Of a stretch of 64,000 bases of DNA, positions 7,023-60,995 are shown in pieces. The stretch spans positions 44,491 through 108,490 of the forward strand of contig JALEPL010000018.1 of NCBI GenBank assembly GCA_022766245.1, in the 5' to 3' direction. The translations under genes were made by a program, and so were the position numbers. A model generated the notes under the pieces. That model had not been told where the DNA came from and ran no database searches. It saw only the letters and a list, made by a program, of their open reading frames with translations. Positions within the stretch are counted from its first letter, which is position 1, and every line of letters starts with the position of its first letter. This stretch comes from Lachnospiraceae bacterium. GTDB taxonomy: Bacteria > Bacillota > Clostridia > Lachnospirales > Lachnospiraceae.

Positions 7023-8210
7023 TTACAGGTACTTCTTTAAATCATCCACCTTATTCAGCTCCTCCCAGGGCAGGGCAATGTCGGTACGTCCAAAATGACC
7101 GTATGCTGCGGTGGGGCGATAGATGGGACGTCTTAAATCCAGCATCTTGATAATGCCGGCAGGACGCAGATCAAAGTTTTCACGGATGATTTCTACAATC
7201 TTCTCATCGGAAAGCTTGCCTGTACCAAAGGTGTCCACCATGATGGAAGTGGGCTGTGCTACACCGATGGCATAGGATAACTGAATCTCGCATTTGTCAG
7301 CCAGACCGGCAGCTACGATATTTTTAGCCACATAACGCGCTGCATAAGCTGCGGAACGATCTACCTTGGTGCAGTCTTTTCCGGAGAAGGCTCCGCCGCC
7401 GTGACGGGCATATCCGCCGTAGGTATCTACGATGATTTTTCGTCCGGTGAGACCGGCATCTCCGTGAGGTCCGCCAATCACAAAGCGCCCAGTGGGATTG
7501 ATGAAAAACTTCGTGTTATCGTCTACCAGCTCAGCGGGAAGGACGGGATCAAAAACATATTTTTTAATATCGCTGTGAATCTGCTCCTGAGTCACATCCT
7601 CGTCATGCTGTGTGGAGAGAACCACTGCCTCCAGACGCTGGGGTGTGCCATTCTCGTCATATTCAACGGAAACCTGAGTCTTTCCGTCCGGTCTTAAGTA
7701 GGACAGGGTACCATCTTTGCGCACTTTGGTTAACTGCAAAGCCAGCTTGTGAGCCAGAGAGATGGGATAAGGCATGAACTCCGGTGTTTCGTTGGTGGCA
7801 TATCCGAACATCATACCCTGATCACCGGCACCGATGGCTTCGATCTGGGCATCGGTCATTTTGTTTTCTCTGGCTTCTAAGGCCTTGTCTACGCCCATGG
7901 CGATGTCCGGAGACTGCTGATCCAGTGCAACCATTACTGCGCAGGTGTGTCCATCGAATCCGGTCTTTGCATCGTTATAGCCGATACCGTTTACGGTTTC
8001 ACGAACGATGGACGGAATGTCCAAATGTGCTTTGGTGGTAATCTCACCGGTTACCAGGATAAAGCCGGTACAGCTGGCTGTCTCGCAGGCTACACGGCTC
8101 ATGGGGTCTTCGGCCATGCAGGCATCTAAGATTGCGTCAGAAATGGCATCGCATACTTTGTCCGGATGTCCTTCTGTTACGGACTCGGAAGTGAATAAAA
8201 GTTTTTCCAT
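7023..8210 (-). CDS. metK: S-adenosylmethionine synthetase
   Basis: [62 protein letters not shown]. Confidence 0.97.
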
Positions 8211-8303: not shown

Positions 8304-8405
8304 CCTCTTATTGTTCGATTTACTCGCTCAGGTTGGCACCTTCCTGTAAAAGGGGTTGCCGTGACTTCACAGATCCTATGTATCTCCATCACTCTGAATA
8401 AGAGA
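8304..8405 (-). promoter_or_regulatory. SAM-I (S-box) riboswitch aptamer
   Basis: Minus strand CTTATTCAGAGTGATGGAG...GGATCTGTGAAGTCACGGCAACCCC...AGGAAGGTGCCAACCTGAGCGAG...AATAAGAG matches the S-box core and P1 pairing, upstream of metK. Confidence 0.95.
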
Positions 8406-9746: not shown

Positions 9747-9754
9747 CGAAAATC

Positions 9755-9885
9755 GTAACTATTCAGTACTTCATAGTTATGCGCACAAATCCATGAAAAT
9801 TTGCTTTGCAAATGGATTTGTGCTTGCTAAATATACGTTTTTTCACGGCATCCGCAGTAAATGCGTATGCCTGCTGAACAATTAC
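9755..9885 (-). repeat. Dispersed ~133-bp palindromic repeat, copy A (reverse orientation)
   Basis: GTAACTATTCAG...CTGAACAATTAC ends; near-identical reverse complement of 41637..41769 and 42821..42953. Confidence 0.92.
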
Positions 9886-9891
9886 CGATAA

Positions 9892-10527
9892 TCATTTTAT
9901 TCTTTTCAGGCAGATGTCCTGCAGCACACATTGATCACAGTAGGGAGCGGTTCTGGCGGTGCAAACTGCACGACCGTGATCTACCAGCCGGTGGCAGAAG
10001 TTGTTGCTCTCCTCTGGTGGGATCAGTTTCCACAGTGCCATTTCCACTTTTTTGGGTTCTTTGATGTTGTCCACCAGGCCGATGCGGTTGCACAGGCGGA
10101 TGCAGTGGGTGTCCGTCACGATGGCAGGTTTGCCAAATACATCTCCCATGATCAGGTTAGCGCTTTTGCGTCCCACGCCGGGAAGTGTTAAAAGCGTGTC
10201 AAAATCCTCGGGAACCTTATCCTGATACTGATCGTGCAGGATGCGCATGCAGGCGCTGATATCCCGGGCTTTGCTATGCCCCAGACCGCAGGGCTTGACG
10301 ATGGCTTCGATTTCTTCCGGTTCGGCAGCGGACAACGCAGCTACTGTGGGGAATTTCTTATATAAATCCACTACTACCACGTTTACTCGGGCATCGGTAC
10401 ACTGAGCTGCCAGGCGAACGCTCACTAAGAGCTTCCAGGCTTCATCATAGTCCAGCGTGCAGTCGGTGTAGGGATATGCTTCTTTCAGACGGGCCACCAC
10501 CTCGGCGGCAAGTTGTTTTTTGGTCAT
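9892..10527 (-). CDS. nth: Endonuclease III
   Basis: HhH LPGVGRKSANLIMGD, VDTHCIRLCNRIGL-type region, C-terminal 4Fe-4S Cys set CTARTAPYCDQCVLQDIC. Confidence 0.95.
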   Translation of the reverse strand: MTKKQLAAEVVARLKEAYPYTDCTLDYDEAWKLLVSVRLAAQCTDARVNVVVVDLYKKFPTVAALSAAEPEEIEAIVKPCGLGHSKARDISACMRILHDQYQDKVPEDFDTLLTLPGVGRKSANLIMGDVFGKPAIVTDTHCIRLCNRIGLVDNIKEPKKVEMALWKLIPPEESNNFCHRLVDHGRAVCTARTAPYCDQCVLQDICLKRIK

Positions 10528-14221: not shown

Positions 14222-14312
14222 GTATCTGTTCAGTACTTCACAGATACGATTCGCAAAAATAGAAACTGTTCAGTACTTCATAGTTATGAGTGCAAATCCA
14301 TAAAAATTTGCA
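14222..14312. repeat. Truncated copies of the dispersed repeat (two terminal hairpins)
   Basis: GTATCTGT-TCAGTACTTC-ACAGATAC followed by AAACTGTTCAGTACTTCATAGTTATGAGTGCAAATCCATAAAAATTTGC, matching the start of 9755..9885. Confidence 0.8.
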
Positions 14313-38652: not shown

Positions 38653-38684
38653 TCAGACCTTCCTTTCTGAATATAGTGATTACG

Positions 38685-38733
38685 TATCTGTTCAGAGCCA
38701 ACCTCGAAAACTAACGTTTTCTCTGAACAGATA
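38685..38733. repeat. Inverted repeat related to the dispersed repeat termini
   Basis: TATCTGTTCAGAG - 23 nt - CTCTGAACAGATA (13-nt perfect arms). Confidence 0.75.
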
Positions 38734-38745
38734 TCAAATTCGCTC

Positions 38746-41609: not shown

Positions 41610-41636
41610 GGATCCTTCAAAGCAAGATGAAAAAAA

Positions 41637-41769
41637 GTAATTGTTCAGCAGGCATACGCATTTACTGCGGATGCCGTGAAAAAACGTATATTTAGCAAGC
41701 ACAAATCCATTTGCGAAGCAAATTATGTATGGATTTGTGCGCATAACTATGAAGGGACTGAATAGTTAT
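41637..41769 (+). repeat. Dispersed ~133-bp palindromic repeat, copy B
   Basis: GTAATTGTTCAG...CTGAATAGTTAT; terminal hairpin CATAACTAT-GAAGGGACTGA-ATAGTTATG. Confidence 0.93.
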
Positions 41770-41777
41770 GAAAAAAG

Positions 41778-41911
41778 GTAACTGTTCAGAACAGGCCGAA
41801 TCACTTGCTGATGAGGCCGTAAGAACATGATTCAGGTGTGAGCAAACCCCATCGGCGCAGCCGATTTCCATGGGTTTGCGAATCGTGTCTGTGAAGGTAC
41901 TGAACAGATAC
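41778..41911 (+). repeat. Dispersed ~133-bp palindromic repeat, copy C (divergent interior)
   Basis: GTAACTGTTCAG...CTGAACAGATAC; terminal hairpin TCGTGTCTGT-GAAGGTACTGA-ACAGATACGA; 8 bp after copy B. Confidence 0.88.
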
Positions 41912-42017
41912 GAAAAAAGTATGATACAATCTATATGGGTTGTGTTATACTTTTTTTAGTTTCCGGCATTGGCGGGGACCGAAATTAATTGAAAGTGTAA
42001 AGTCAAATATGAAAACC

Positions 42018-42056
42018 GACACAAGGGCTCCGTCACCTGCGGTGACACCTCGTGTC
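42018..42056 (+). other. Nested stem-loop in the presumed 5' leader of 42078..42821
   Basis: GACACAAGG-GCTCC-GTCACC-TGC-GGTGAC-A-CCTCGTGTC. Confidence 0.55.
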
Positions 42057-42077
42057 AAAATTTGCTGAGGAAAACAA

Positions 42078-42821
42078 ATGATTACATGTAAAAATTGTGG
42101 CGCAGATTATGATGAAAATACGGAACGATGCCCCTATTGCGGTGGAGATAATTTTGAAAAATCCGTGCGTACCCATCAGGAGAAAATCAGTGGTCTCCAT
42201 CAGGAGAAGAAAAGGTGGGAAGCTATGCCGGATAAGGTGGCACAAAAAATGGTGTCTTTGACTATGAAGATTGTTATTTGTGCAGTGATAGGTGTAGTTT
42301 TAGTTTGTATATTACTGTTCGCCGGTACGAGAATCAAAAACAGTGTCATGAATAAAATGGATGCAGCAGCAATTGAAAAGCTGGAGGAAATGTACCAGAA
42401 CGGAGACTATACCGGAATCAGCAAGTATATGGATAAACTGGGGAATCCCACGCGGCCGAAGTATGAGAAATATAATCAGATTGTGATTTTGGAAGAGTTA
42501 CTGTCTCATATTCAGAAGGAAGATGAAGGCTATCTTCAGTTTCTTGTCCGTGAGAATGAGGTGCCTACCAATATTACATACATTGTCTGGATTTTAAAAG
42601 AATGTCAGTTCTATGAGAATGAATATTATAAATATGACGAGCAGGATGTGGTGGAGGCTTATCGGAAGTGGTGTTATGATTTCATGGAAGAGCAATACGG
42701 ACTACCAAGGGAAGAGGCAGAGGGAGTGTTTGAGGCTGCTGGAGAGGTGAACTGGGATAATGAGGACGAAGTCCGAAAGGATCTGGAACAAAGAGCGTTG
42801 GCACATTTAAAGGAAAAATAG
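42078..42821 (+). CDS. Zinc-ribbon membrane protein (paralogue 1)
   Basis: CKNCGADYDENTERCPYCGG followed by TM IVICAVIGVVLVCILLFAG and an extracytoplasmic domain. Confidence 0.75.
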   Translation: MITCKNCGADYDENTERCPYCGGDNFEKSVRTHQEKISGLHQEKKRWEAMPDKVAQKMVSLTMKIVICAVIGVVLVCILLFAGTRIKNSVMNKMDAAAIEKLEEMYQNGDYTGISKYMDKLGNPTRPKYEKYNQIVILEELLSHIQKEDEGYLQFLVRENEVPTNITYIVWILKECQFYENEYYKYDEQDVVEAYRKWCYDFMEEQYGLPREEAEGVFEAAGEVNWDNEDEVRKDLEQRALAHLKEK

Positions 42822-42953
42822 TAACTGTTTAGTAGGCATACGCATTTACTGCGGATGCCGTGAAAAAACGTATATTTAGCAAGCACAAATCCATTTGCGA
42901 AGCAAATTATGTATGGATTTGTGCTCGCAACTATGAAGGTACTGAATGGTTAC
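42821..42953 (+). repeat. Dispersed ~133-bp palindromic repeat, copy D
   Basis: GTAACTGTTTAG...CTGAATGGTTAC; nearly identical to copy B over the interior; starts on the last base of the upstream TAG stop. Confidence 0.93.
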
Positions 42954-42983
42954 GAAAAATAGTGACATATCAGGGGGAAAAAG

Positions 42984-43739
42984 ATGGAGTGTGTAAAATG
43001 CGGGTATGATTATCCGGCAAAGGAAATAAAATGTCCTTACTGTGGTGAGCCGAATCCGTTGGGAATTGCATGGAAAGAGGAAGAAGAACAGAAGAGGGCG
43101 GAGACAGAACATACCAAAAGAAGAATCCTGAAGTCTATGCCTCTTTACATAGCCAACAAGCTTGTGAATGTGATTTTGATACTGGGTGTGTTGTTGAGCG
43201 TCGTGTTTGTGGCGATTGCATTTATTGCGTCTGGAGTGGAATCGGCGCTCACGGAACGCAAGCAGAGTCAGGCATCTGTTGCAGAAGCGGAAAAGCTGTT
43301 CGAGGAGGATGACAATGCGGCGTTAAAGACATATTTGAAACAATATGAAGTGTTTGGGAAGGTCGGCTATGAGAAATACACAGAACGAGTGTTACTGTAT
43401 GATGAATATGTAGAGTTCATGCGGTCAGCATTTGAGATCCAACAGGTACTGGATTGGGGGAGGGGAGAACAGCCAAATATTATTTGGGTGGACGGATTTA
43501 TGGACGCAGGACACGACATTCTCCAGGCAGATAGCTATGAATTTCGAGATTTGGAATATGATGAAAACATTCAGTATTTAGAGGAAATGCAGGGTCAGGT
43601 ATCGGCGGTATTCATGGGGGTCTTCGAAATGACAGAGGATGAAATGAAATCATTTGTCGGCCTTCCTGAATATTCAGAGGAGTACGATGAAACGGTAAAA
43701 ATGGTTATGGAAAGAAAAGGCTGGGAGTATGCAGAATAA
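42984..43739 (+). CDS. Zinc-ribbon membrane protein (paralogue 2)
   Basis: CVKCGYDYPAKEIKCPYCGE, single TM, same architecture as 42078..42821. Confidence 0.75.
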   Translation: MECVKCGYDYPAKEIKCPYCGEPNPLGIAWKEEEEQKRAETEHTKRRILKSMPLYIANKLVNVILILGVLLSVVFVAIAFIASGVESALTERKQSQASVAEAEKLFEEDDNAALKTYLKQYEVFGKVGYEKYTERVLLYDEYVEFMRSAFEIQQVLDWGRGEQPNIIWVDGFMDAGHDILQADSYEFRDLEYDENIQYLEEMQGQVSAVFMGVFEMTEDEMKSFVGLPEYSEEYDETVKMVMERKGWEYAE

Positions 43740-44256
43740 AATCAAGATCAAAGAATTATTTCAGTTTAAGGATAAAACAGGGGAGTATAAGGTAAATCTG
43801 GTGGCATTTATCATAAAGTCCATAGCAGCGTTTTTGGTTGTGTTAACGGCAATCAGCGCCATTGGTGTCGTGTGGGAAATGGTGATAGACGAGGCGGAAT
43901 ACTCGGGGCAGGAATATTATCTATCCCGCTGTGAGCAGCTCTATATGGATCGGGAGTTTTCGCAGCTATATGACAATATGAATCTATATAATCTGACCGA
44001 ACCTGAGTATGATAAATATTGGGAATTGGTGAATGGATATCAGGATAATCTTCTGTATCTCAGCTATCGCAGTGTGCAGGAACAGGGGAAGAAACAGGTG
44101 GATTTCGCATACATCAATGGAGAGGAAGAATCCGCCAGAATATATTTTGATGCAGATGAAAAAACACAGTACTATGGGAATAAAGTGCAGGAAAATGCTG
44201 AAAACTGCCGATTTGAAAGCAATGAGAGATACTTAGCCGGTTTCGCAGAGAAGTAG
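43729..44256 (+). CDS. Membrane protein lacking the zinc ribbon (paralogue 3)
   Basis: Single TM IIKSIAAFLVVLTAISAIGVV; similar extracytoplasmic layout; overlaps paralogue 2 by 11 nt. Confidence 0.65.
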   Translation: MQNKIKIKELFQFKDKTGEYKVNLVAFIIKSIAAFLVVLTAISAIGVVWEMVIDEAEYSGQEYYLSRCEQLYMDREFSQLYDNMNLYNLTEPEYDKYWELVNGYQDNLLYLSYRSVQEQGKKQVDFAYINGEEESARIYFDADEKTQYYGNKVQENAENCRFESNERYLAGFAEK

Positions 44257-44315
44257 CGATACGTGCAACCTTGAATCTCTTGAAAAAAGGGGATATCCCA
44301 TTTATAATAAATATG

Positions 44316-44448
44316 GTAACTGCTCAGTACAGGACGGAGCGGAACCGCATAGACCGTAAGAACATGATTTAGGAGTGCAAAAATCCCATCGTCGAAGACG
44401 ATTCTCATGGATTTTTGCATTGTAACTGTGAAGGAACTGAACAGTTAC
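44316..44448 (+). repeat. Dispersed ~133-bp palindromic repeat, copy E (divergent interior)
   Basis: GTAACTGCTCAG...CTGAACAGTTAC; terminal hairpin GTAACTGT-GAAGGAACTGA-ACAGTTAC. Confidence 0.9.
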
Positions 44449-44501
44449 TGAATATGTATGTTTGCAGAAGGTCTATGATGTATGCGTAAGAGGGTAAAGG
44501 T

Positions 44502-58267: not shown

Positions 58268-59566
58268 ATGAGTATGCTGTCGTATTTTGCATTGATTGCA
58301 CTTATGATTGTCATAATCAGTGTGGTGAATGAAAAATGGTTACATATTCAGGGGGATATTGTGATCGTTTTGTTTTCCCTGATCATCGGAATCGTGCTGT
58401 TGGTGTTGGAGCAGATGCCACAGTTTGCAGAGACCATGACAGAGTTGCGGTTGAAGGTGAACTTTGATTTTGCAGCGTATTTGCTGGATGGTGTGCTGTG
58501 CTTTATGTTGTTTGCGGGAGCGAGCCGGGTATCTGTAACGAAATTCAGACAGAACCTCAGACCGATCACCCTTTTGGCATTGTTGGGTACCCTGGTGTCC
58601 TCTGTGGTGTACGGACTGATGTTCTTTGTGATTGCATGGATTTTCCGCATGAATATGAATCTGTGGACCTGCATTTTATTAGGTTGTATCGTGTCCCCCA
58701 CGGATCCCATTGCGGCAACAGGAATTCTGAGTAAGTTAGGAATGTCAAAAAACGTCACCTCAGTGATTGAGTGTGAATCGTTGTTTAATGATGGAACCGG
58801 TGTGGCGTTGTTCTTGTTTTTTAAGGGAATTGTAGCTCATGAGAGCGGTGGAAACTTTTTCTACATTATGGGAAAGGAATTGTTTGGAGCCATTGCAGTG
58901 GCAATCGTGGTTTCCTTCCTGTTGTTTTCCCTGCTTCGTCTCACAAAAGATCCCATTAAGCATATTCTTATCAGTTTGACGGATGTGATGCTGGTCTATG
59001 TAATCTGTGAACATATGGGATTCTCAGGTGTGATTGCGTCGGTTGTCTGCGGGATGTGCTTTGCCTATATGAGAAGCAGAATTGACAGACAGCTTCAGGT
59101 ACAGGATCCGGAGAAGCTCTATGATCATTTCTGGGAGGCGGCAGACGCAATTCTCAATGCCGCATTGTTTATGCTGCTGGGGTTAACAGTTTCGACTATG
59201 ACCATAAGCAAGTATTTCCTGCTCCTTCTTCCGCTGGGAATTGCGGCGGTGATTTTGTCCCGGTATGCAGGAGTGAGGACCTGTACGGTTTTCATGGATA
59301 AGAATCATATGCCGGGAAATTACAACAGCAAGGAGTTTTCTAAGCTGATGACCTGGAGTGCCTTAAAGGGAGGTCTTTCTCTGGCACTTGCTCTGGGAAC
59401 CCAGGAATTGCTGACGGATTCGGTGTATCTGATTGTATTGAATACGGTATACATTACCATTTTCTTTACGGTATTGGTACAGGGTCTCACCGTAAAGAAG
59501 GCTTATTTTGCAATCGAGGAAGAAAAAAGAGGCGCTTCAAAAAATAGGTCGAAGCGGAAAATGTGA
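58268..59566 (+). CDS. Na+/H+ (cation:proton) antiporter, CPA1 family
   Basis: LLGCIVSPTDPIAATGIL, ECESLFNDGTGVALF. Confidence 0.93.
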   Translation: MSMLSYFALIALMIVIISVVNEKWLHIQGDIVIVLFSLIIGIVLLVLEQMPQFAETMTELRLKVNFDFAAYLLDGVLCFMLFAGASRVSVTKFRQNLRPITLLALLGTLVSSVVYGLMFFVIAWIFRMNMNLWTCILLGCIVSPTDPIAATGILSKLGMSKNVTSVIECESLFNDGTGVALFLFFKGIVAHESGGNFFYIMGKELFGAIAVAIVVSFLLFSLLRLTKDPIKHILISLTDVMLVYVICEHMGFSGVIASVVCGMCFAYMRSRIDRQLQVQDPEKLYDHFWEAADAILNAALFMLLGLTVSTMTISKYFLLLLPLGIAAVILSRYAGVRTCTVFMDKNHMPGNYNSKEFSKLMTWSALKGGLSLALALGTQELLTDSVYLIVLNTVYITIFFTVLVQGLTVKKAYFAIEEEKRGASKNRSKRKM

Positions 59567-59612
59567 AGGTACTGAACAGTGACGTAAAAGCAGAAAGGAA
59601 CAGGTAATACGG

Positions 59613-60995
59613 ATGAAAATCATAATTGTTGGAATGGGACAGACCGGTAGAATGTTAGCGATTGCTGCTTGCAAAGAACAGCATGAAGTAATAGTAATCG
59701 ATAGCAAAAAAGAAGCCGTGGATGAAATGACGGATAAATACAATATGAATGGCGTGGTGGGAAGCGGTGGCTCCCGCAATATCCTCATGCAGGCAGGGGC
59801 GGAAGACGCAGATCTTCTGGTGGCATTAACACCCTACGATGAATTAAATATTCTCTCCTGTATGACGGCAAAAAAGCTGGGAACCCGGGACACTTCTGCC
59901 AGAATTCATTGCCCGGAGTTCGATGAGGATGAAGCATACATTCTGAAGGAGTATGGCATTGATAGATTGTTAAATCCGGAGAAGGAAGCAGCAAAGGAAA
60001 TGCTCTGGCACATCGGCCAGTCTTCTGCCCTGCGAACCGAGGCATTTTTTGAACGGAAGATTCTGGTTTCTGAGTTGGAAGTGGAGGAGAATAGTCCACT
60101 GATCAATATGACAGTACGGCAGGTGAAAGAATTTTTTGACACAGACATGCTGGTGGTGGCCATCCGCAGGAAGAAAGGAATCCTGATTCCTGATGGCAAT
60201 GCACAGATCATGCATCAGGATAAACTGGAAGTGATTGTACCGGTGAAGTCTGTGCGGACTATCTTCCGAAAACTGCGGATGAAGGAGAAGCGGGTAAGAA
60301 CCATTTTCATGGTGGGCTGTGGTACCACAGGGTACTATTTGGCCAAGGAGCTGGAAGGAACCGGGTACTCGCTGAAAATTCTGGAAAAAGACAGAGAGCG
60401 GTGCATCGAACTGACCAATCAGTTTCCCAAGGCTCAGGTGGTTTATGCAGATGCGGTGGACCCGCAGATACTGGAGGAGGAAGGAATCAAGCGGATGGAT
60501 GCCTGCGTTTCTGTGACCGGAAATGACCGGACCAATCTGGCAGTTTCCTTGTATGCGAACTCCGAGGGTGTGACTCAGGTTCTGGCCAAAATCAATGAAG
60601 CAGGTTATGAGCAGATTTTGAAAAAGTCTGATATCAGCACCTGCGTATCGCCCAGCAGCGTCATCGTACACGAGCTCCTGTCGGTGATCCGCAATCTGGG
60701 CAGCAGCAACGACAGTTGGATTAAAAAGCTGTACCGTATAGCAGATGGCCAGGCGGAGGCCATTGCCTTTGAGGTGTCAGATCATTGTGATTGGAGTGAT
60801 ATGCCTTTCCGTGCACCGGAGTTCCGATTGAAAAAGGGAATTCTCATCGCTGCCATTATCCGGGGAAAGGAAATCTTTATCCCGGATGGAAACAGCAGCA
60901 TGCAGGCCGGTGATACGGTGGTGGTGATATCGGACACCCGCAATATTCTGAAAGAAATTGACGATATTTTTGATAAGAAAACGAAAACACAATAA
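59613..60995 (+). CDS. trkA: Trk system potassium uptake protein TrkA
   Basis: Two tandem RCK/NAD-binding modules (IIIVGMGQTGRMLA, IFMVGCGTTGYYLA) and TrkA_C domains. Confidence 0.93.
   Translation: MKIIIVGMGQTGRMLAIAACKEQHEVIVIDSKKEAVDEMTDKYNMNGVVGSGGSRNILMQAGAEDADLLVALTPYDELNILSCMTAKKLGTRDTSARIHCPEFDEDEAYILKEYGIDRLLNPEKEAAKEMLWHIGQSSALRTEAFFERKILVSELEVEENSPLINMTVRQVKEFFDTDMLVVAIRRKKGILIPDGNAQIMHQDKLEVIVPVKSVRTIFRKLRMKEKRVRTIFMVGCGTTGYYLAKELEGTGYSLKILEKDRERCIELTNQFPKAQVVYADAVDPQILEEEGIKRMDACVSVTGNDRTNLAVSLYANSEGVTQVLAKINEAGYEQILKKSDISTCVSPSSVIVHELLSVIRNLGSSNDSWIKKLYRIADGQAEAIAFEVSDHCDWSDMPFRAPEFRLKKGILIAAIIRGKEIFIPDGNSSMQAGDTVVVISDTRNILKEIDDIFDKKTKTQ

Follow-up and report, generated by a model that had tools for sequence, protein, structure and literature searches.

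Correia/nemis, RUP and ERIC elements are among the comparable bacterial MITEs. QMITE2 of Coxiella is a bacterial MITE with a stable transcript fold (PMC10969869), and the repeats described here resemble elements of this kind in their size of 100-200 bp, inverted termini, target-site duplications (TSDs), intergenic location and stable transcript fold; they differ in having a distinct end sequence, a different host clade, a three-hairpin plan and recurrent 27- to 66-bp remnants with the TSD intact. Elements of the IS66 family have canonical ends of 20-30 bp, starting with GTAAGCG, and 8-bp direct repeats (PMC11946415). Our repeats share the GTAA tip and the 8-bp direct repeats, and PF03050 genes of relatives carry the same 12-bp ends, but the repeats end in GTAACTRTTCAG and have no coding capacity. 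Like REP/BIME elements with their TnpA-REP, they are high-copy, short intergenic palindromes; unlike them, they have 8-bp TSDs, inverted termini, empty sites and ends of IS66 rather than HUH type.

We consider it quite probable that these repeats form a non-autonomous MITE family of IS66 type, moved in trans and carrying conserved, covarying hairpins. Judged by ends and duplication length, this is a genuine MITE family of the IS66 type, and as far as the open literature shows it is newly described: we found nothing relevant there on IS66 MITEs or on MITEs in Blautia or Lachnospiraceae, and the exact end strings occurred in papers whose titles point only to apparent primers or unrelated sequences.

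Copies in the window and across the Lachnospiraceae

The window (the whole 64,000-nucleotide stretch of DNA analyzed) comes from a draft genome of 2.44 Mb in 60 contigs, 96% complete, referred to below as G000. The five copies of 131-134 bp recognized by the initial annotation are all confirmed in position and length (Table 1), and the two interior types are present as it described them. The flanking 8-bp duplications, which it had overlooked, are exact or near-exact at 5/5 copies in the window; the copy at 41778 was inserted adjoining the one at 41637, with the duplication GAAAAAAG common to both. Ends resembling GTAACTGTTCAG (at most two mismatches) number 23 in the window against 3.6 expected (0/100 shuffles). 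The 51-bp element is probably a remnant of a second, 153-bp MITE family of the source genome.

Table 1. Repeat copies, their parts and related elements in the window, with the loci of two further MITE families
Feature	Position or locus	Strand	Flanking duplications and remarks
Full MITE copy, type 1, 131 bp	9755..9885	-	CGAAAATC (9747-9754) / CGATAATC (9886-9893)
Full MITE copy, type 1, 133 bp	41637..41769	+	GAAAAAAA (41629-41636) / GAAAAAAG (41770-41777)
Full MITE copy, type 2, 134 bp	41778..41911	+	exact, GAAAAAAG (41770-41777, 41912-41919)
Full MITE copy, type 1, 133 bp	42821..42953	+	exact, GAAAAATA (42813-42820, 42954-42961)
Full MITE copy, type 2, 133 bp	44316..44448	+	TAAATATG (44308-44315) / TGAATATG (44449-44456)
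Left terminal inverted repeat GTAACTGTTTAG, example of one copy	42821..42832	+	
27-bp right-end hairpin (inner arm, GAAGGTACTGA, terminal arm), example of one copy	42927..42953	+	
Truncated copy, 3' part	14256..14311	-	right-end hairpin at 14262-14287
Second right-end hairpin, beside the truncated copy 14256..14311	14222..14247	-	type-2 flank TGCGAATC; remnant without duplication
Degenerate right-end hairpin	59557..59583	+	without target duplication
51-bp element, ends GTATCTGTTCAGAGCC / CTCTGAACAGATAT	38684..38734	+	
Second (153-bp) MITE family of G000	L340, L348, L351, L352		
165-bp MITE family of G084	L354-L365, L324, L335, L343		

The left part of a full copy consists of the end GTAACTRTTCAG, stem I (10 bp, loop YTTRC) and a linker that begins with CGTAAGAA; stem II has a long arm ending in CCAT, a distal hairpin (e.g., GCGAAGC) and then ATGG with the return arm, and the copy closes with the right-end hairpin, GTAACTRT-GAAGGNACTGA-AYAGTTAC. 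Alternatively, the left end can pair with the right end, and minimum-energy folds use either arrangement. The right terminal repeat reads inward as GTAACTGTTCAGNACCTTC, so the near-constant loop that had been noted in the right-end hairpin belongs mostly to the inner portion of that repeat. Within stem II, variants of 185 bp and longer (L256, L257, L261, L263 and L265 in G000; L114, L135, L156 and L159) have an additional hairpin of at least about 50 bp (e.g., GTCTACGCTTCGCTTCGGTCGG...AGGTGCCACTGGCACCT), and the inserts differ between genera.

Several neighboring features deserve mention. The stop codon (42819-42821) of the ORF at 42078-42821 is made up of the last bases of the duplication and the first base of the copy at 42821. 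This ORF and the one at 42984-43739 have a zinc-ribbon-like N-terminus; they are two of the three small ORFs that lie, together with four repeat copies, in the segment 41610-44596, which is apparently missing in the congener G001, where the flanking matches are ~170 bp apart. Rfam gave no family over the repeat copies (in the window and in a set of six loci), and its sole match in the window was a SAM riboswitch elsewhere (RF00162, 73 bits, 8305-8404, minus strand).

The proposal of a dispersed mobile family holds well beyond the window. A 133-bp query gave 41 BLAST matches in G000, and the terminal hairpin AACTRTGAAGKNACTGAAYAGTT (at most three mismatches) occurs 119 times there versus 0 for the reversed pattern; 107 hairpins of G000 were examined and comprise 41 full copies, 22 solo hairpins (duplication matching at 6/8 or more) and 44 that are unclassified or truncated. 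GTDB species genomes scanned with an exact pattern gave at least 116 stretches; among the matches listed, records named by group were nearly all Lachnospiraceae, and the genera named were Blautia, Oliverpabstia, Eisenbergiella, Roseburia, Murimonas, Acetatifactor and Coprococcus. Of 250 genomes sampled from the Lachnospiraceae, roughly one for each genus, 26 had hairpins, with the counts at up to two mismatches reaching 90 in G000, 74 in G132, 41 in G252 and 37 in G255, and zero in the congener G005 in the same survey. A class-wide sample of 292 genomes had matches only in G000, apart from one single match with two mismatches. In these samples the distribution is patchy, high-copy and confined to Lachnospiraceae; such patchy presence, with high copy numbers in a few hosts, is what an element that moves horizontally and multiplies in bursts produces. 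A 12-kb phage record of fecal origin, "Bacteriophage sp." MT836459.1, also contains half a copy (7730-7802) at ~80% identity.

Target duplications, empty sites and short remnants

The copies, at 131-236 bp with GTAACTRTTCAG ends, are short and without a transposase gene, and they show both 8-bp TSDs and two empty sites, as MITEs do. In 108 full elements the TSD matched at 8/8 positions in 44 and at 7/8 in 23; the left ends in this tally were picked partly by their duplication match, so the histogram of end-pair lengths is the fairer test. At all loci examined, 71 end pairs had an exact 8-bp repeat, with length peaks at ~27 and ~130 bp; although the range was allowed to extend to 4000 bp, just two of the 71 exceeded 300 bp. 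Terminal repeat pairs up to 4 kb apart at these loci revealed no long autonomous element with the hairpin at its end.

A search for empty sites in relatives, as the initial annotation had proposed, yielded two in a comparison of G132 and G564, which belong to the same genus (~82-98% identity per block over the compared stretch), each with a single copy of the target. In G564 (C23) a 142-bp copy at 60350-60491 lies between two GAAATGTA and a 27-bp copy at 58920-58946 lies between two AAAGTAGT; the corresponding empty sites in G132 have one GAGATGTA and one AAAGTAGT, respectively. At another site, with the duplication GTATTTTG common to both genomes, the element is 138 bp in G132 versus 45 bp in G564, the deletion joining at AGGT, which shows in-situ deletion at work. 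The other copies of this pair occupy identical sites in both genomes, with small indels. Congeneric genomes, at ~70% identity, yielded no base-level empty sites.

The 27-bp solo hairpins are probably remnants of such in-situ deletion. Slippage between short direct repeats, such as the GTAACTRT of the left end and the GTAACTRT of the inner arm, would remove the interior and leave hairpin remnants of 27 to 66 bp with the original duplication retained. In solos with a ACAGATAC arm, the left arm comes from the left-end variant in 5/11, versus 3/21 full copies (Fisher p = 0.09); chimeric stems in this direction are what slippage predicts, and they are only suggestive rather than proof. It is doubtful that the 27-bp terminal hairpin is itself mobile, as two overlapping ends inserted by a DDE transposase with an 8-bp duplication, and in-situ deletion is the simpler account of both the 27-bp copy with its empty site and the 22 solos. 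If true, a mobile hairpin of 27 bp would be among the smallest transposable elements known.

Termini and the candidate IS66 transposase

Exact 12-mers of the form GTAACT[AG]TTCAG occur six times in 58 IS66 loci (174 kb) versus 0.04 expected, and shuffled 12-mers gave a mean of 0.02. The IS66 genes of relatives that have these ends are divergent members of the family. At L201 the inverted ends GTATCTGTTCAGAACCCCC and GTAACTGTTCAGAACCCCC, matching the MITE end at ~16/19 bp, flank a PF03050/DUF6444 transposase; this element had no counterpart in plasmids. L209, a decayed copy of 1067 bp, has both ends and AAAATTTG repeats offset by one base, L208 has one exact end and L194 has GTTACTGTTCAG on both sides. 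L201 and L194 are without target duplications, and no autonomous element turned up that is complete, matches at both ends and has an exact TSD; L201, L194 and L209 all fall short. Identity to the IS66 ends is confined to ~12-19 bp, and the repeat tip is GTAACTG, not the typical GTAAGCG. The second MITE family of G000 (153 bp) has GTAACTATTCAGAACCCC ends (an 18-bp IS66-subgroup end), with an exact TSD, TTTATTTC, in L340 and a 60-bp deletion derivative between exact CATTATGA duplications. G084, host of the L208 IS66 gene, has 114 end matches and 165-bp MITEs with GTAAYTATTCAGCACCCC ends, along with derivatives of 42 to 76 bp, several of which have exact duplications.

The repeats thus have the 8-bp TSD and the termini common to an IS66 transposase element (12-bp match) that an IS66-derived MITE should have. 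The PF03050 (IS66) gene of an autonomous partner was found neither in G000 itself nor in the high-copy genomes G252, G255 and G166, and matching ends were sought and absent in the IS66 copies of high-copy G132, so that we infer the IS66 assignment from end sequence and duplication length. A transposase of the DDE type from the IS66 subgroup, supplied in trans, would bind the terminal repeats, on the right with an inner ACCTTC in addition to the 12-bp tip, move the MITE and leave the 8-bp duplication.

The lack of a PF03050 match in four high-copy genomes and of matching ends in G132 would also fit a MITE of the same kind mobilized by some other DDE family that makes 8-bp duplications. We regard this as unlikely: a GTAA tip with an 8-bp TSD is the IS66 pattern, and the six exact end 12-mers in the 58 IS66 loci speak for the same family; moreover, multi-copy IS elements are often missing from drafts, and the transposase may have disappeared from the hosts. 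The initial annotation had instead suggested REP/BIME-like hairpins or mobilization by a tyrosine transposase (Y1/HUH, as in TnpA-REP), and the short palindromic hairpins scattered between genes, 119 of them in G000, do recall REP elements. To our knowledge, Y1/IS200-IS605-type single-strand transposition is not expected to produce a target duplication. The 8-bp duplications and empty sites depart from the absence of TSDs in REP/BIME elements, and the true inverted termini are of IS66 (DDE) type and common to IS66 loci, which makes mobilization by a Y1 enzyme extremely improbable.

Folding of the interior and what may maintain it

The covariation claimed for the stems is borne out by compensatory changes across many genomes; the five window copies alone are weak evidence for it. 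The stem of the copy at 42821 is GCAACTAT/ATGGTTAC, including a C.A mismatch, and the stem GTATCTGT/ACAGATAC belongs to the separate hairpin at 14222 rather than to one of the five copies. Anchored on its loop, stem I pairs at 8.83/10 positions within copies versus 6.65 across copies (0/2000 shuffles), and stem II at 10.52 versus 9.20 in chimeras given the same optimization (0/5000). In 30 non-redundant copies 91.7% of the cells pair and 16/23 pairs have changes on both sides; double-change cells number 105, versus 33 in shuffles (0/500), which ignore relatedness, and versus 13-30 when partners are slid, a control that keeps it. The mean MFE z is -5.4 on the forward and -5.3 on the reverse strand. 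Covariation is thus present, and the similarity does not go back to one recent segmental duplication. The copies are spread over dozens of contigs, where their flanks are unrelated and their TSDs differ.

Copies between tandem genes are oriented 22 sense versus 7 antisense (p = 0.008, simple ORF calls), which hints at an effect at the RNA level, and insertion bias could also account for the 22:7 ratio. They also lie close behind genes (median 41 bp). Most likely, the two-hairpin interior stays folded because sense RNA hairpins would make insertions just downstream of genes tolerable, or would protect or process the transcript.

A stronger version of this idea is that the repeats are a host-functional structured RNA, either an element for processing or stability of the 3' UTR or a regulator, that was spread by transposition and is under selection as RNA. 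The covarying stems and conserved loops, the sense bias, the position near gene ends and the internal mismatches of stem I, which resemble sheared GA pairs (GA..GA), all agree with it, but the patchy occurrence (26/250 genera, zero copies in congener G005), the insertions polymorphic between close genomes, the equal folding of the reverse strand and the lack of an Rfam match do not, and we think it quite unlikely. The folding may instead be kept by palindrome correction at the DNA level, that is, hairpin-templated repair within a foldback MITE would produce the covariation by mutation rather than by selection. The inner and right arms match each other and the left terminal repeat varies independently, with a GTAA left end combined with GTAT-type arms in 14 full copies, and the terminal hairpin is 97.5% paired, which speaks for such repair; the conservation of stem I loops and internal mismatches across genera argues against it and the sense bias is left unexplained, so that we see this as a possible, if less than likely, source of the covariation.

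The MITE family described here is widespread in gut Lachnospiraceae, apparently unnamed, and tied by our reading to an IS66 subgroup, and short palindromes dispersed between genes would be explained as remnants of transposons. With dozens of genera and two close genomes, it provides a natural data set on why the interiors of bacterial MITEs stay folded, for which selection on RNA, selection on DNA structure and palindrome-correction mutation are the candidate causes.
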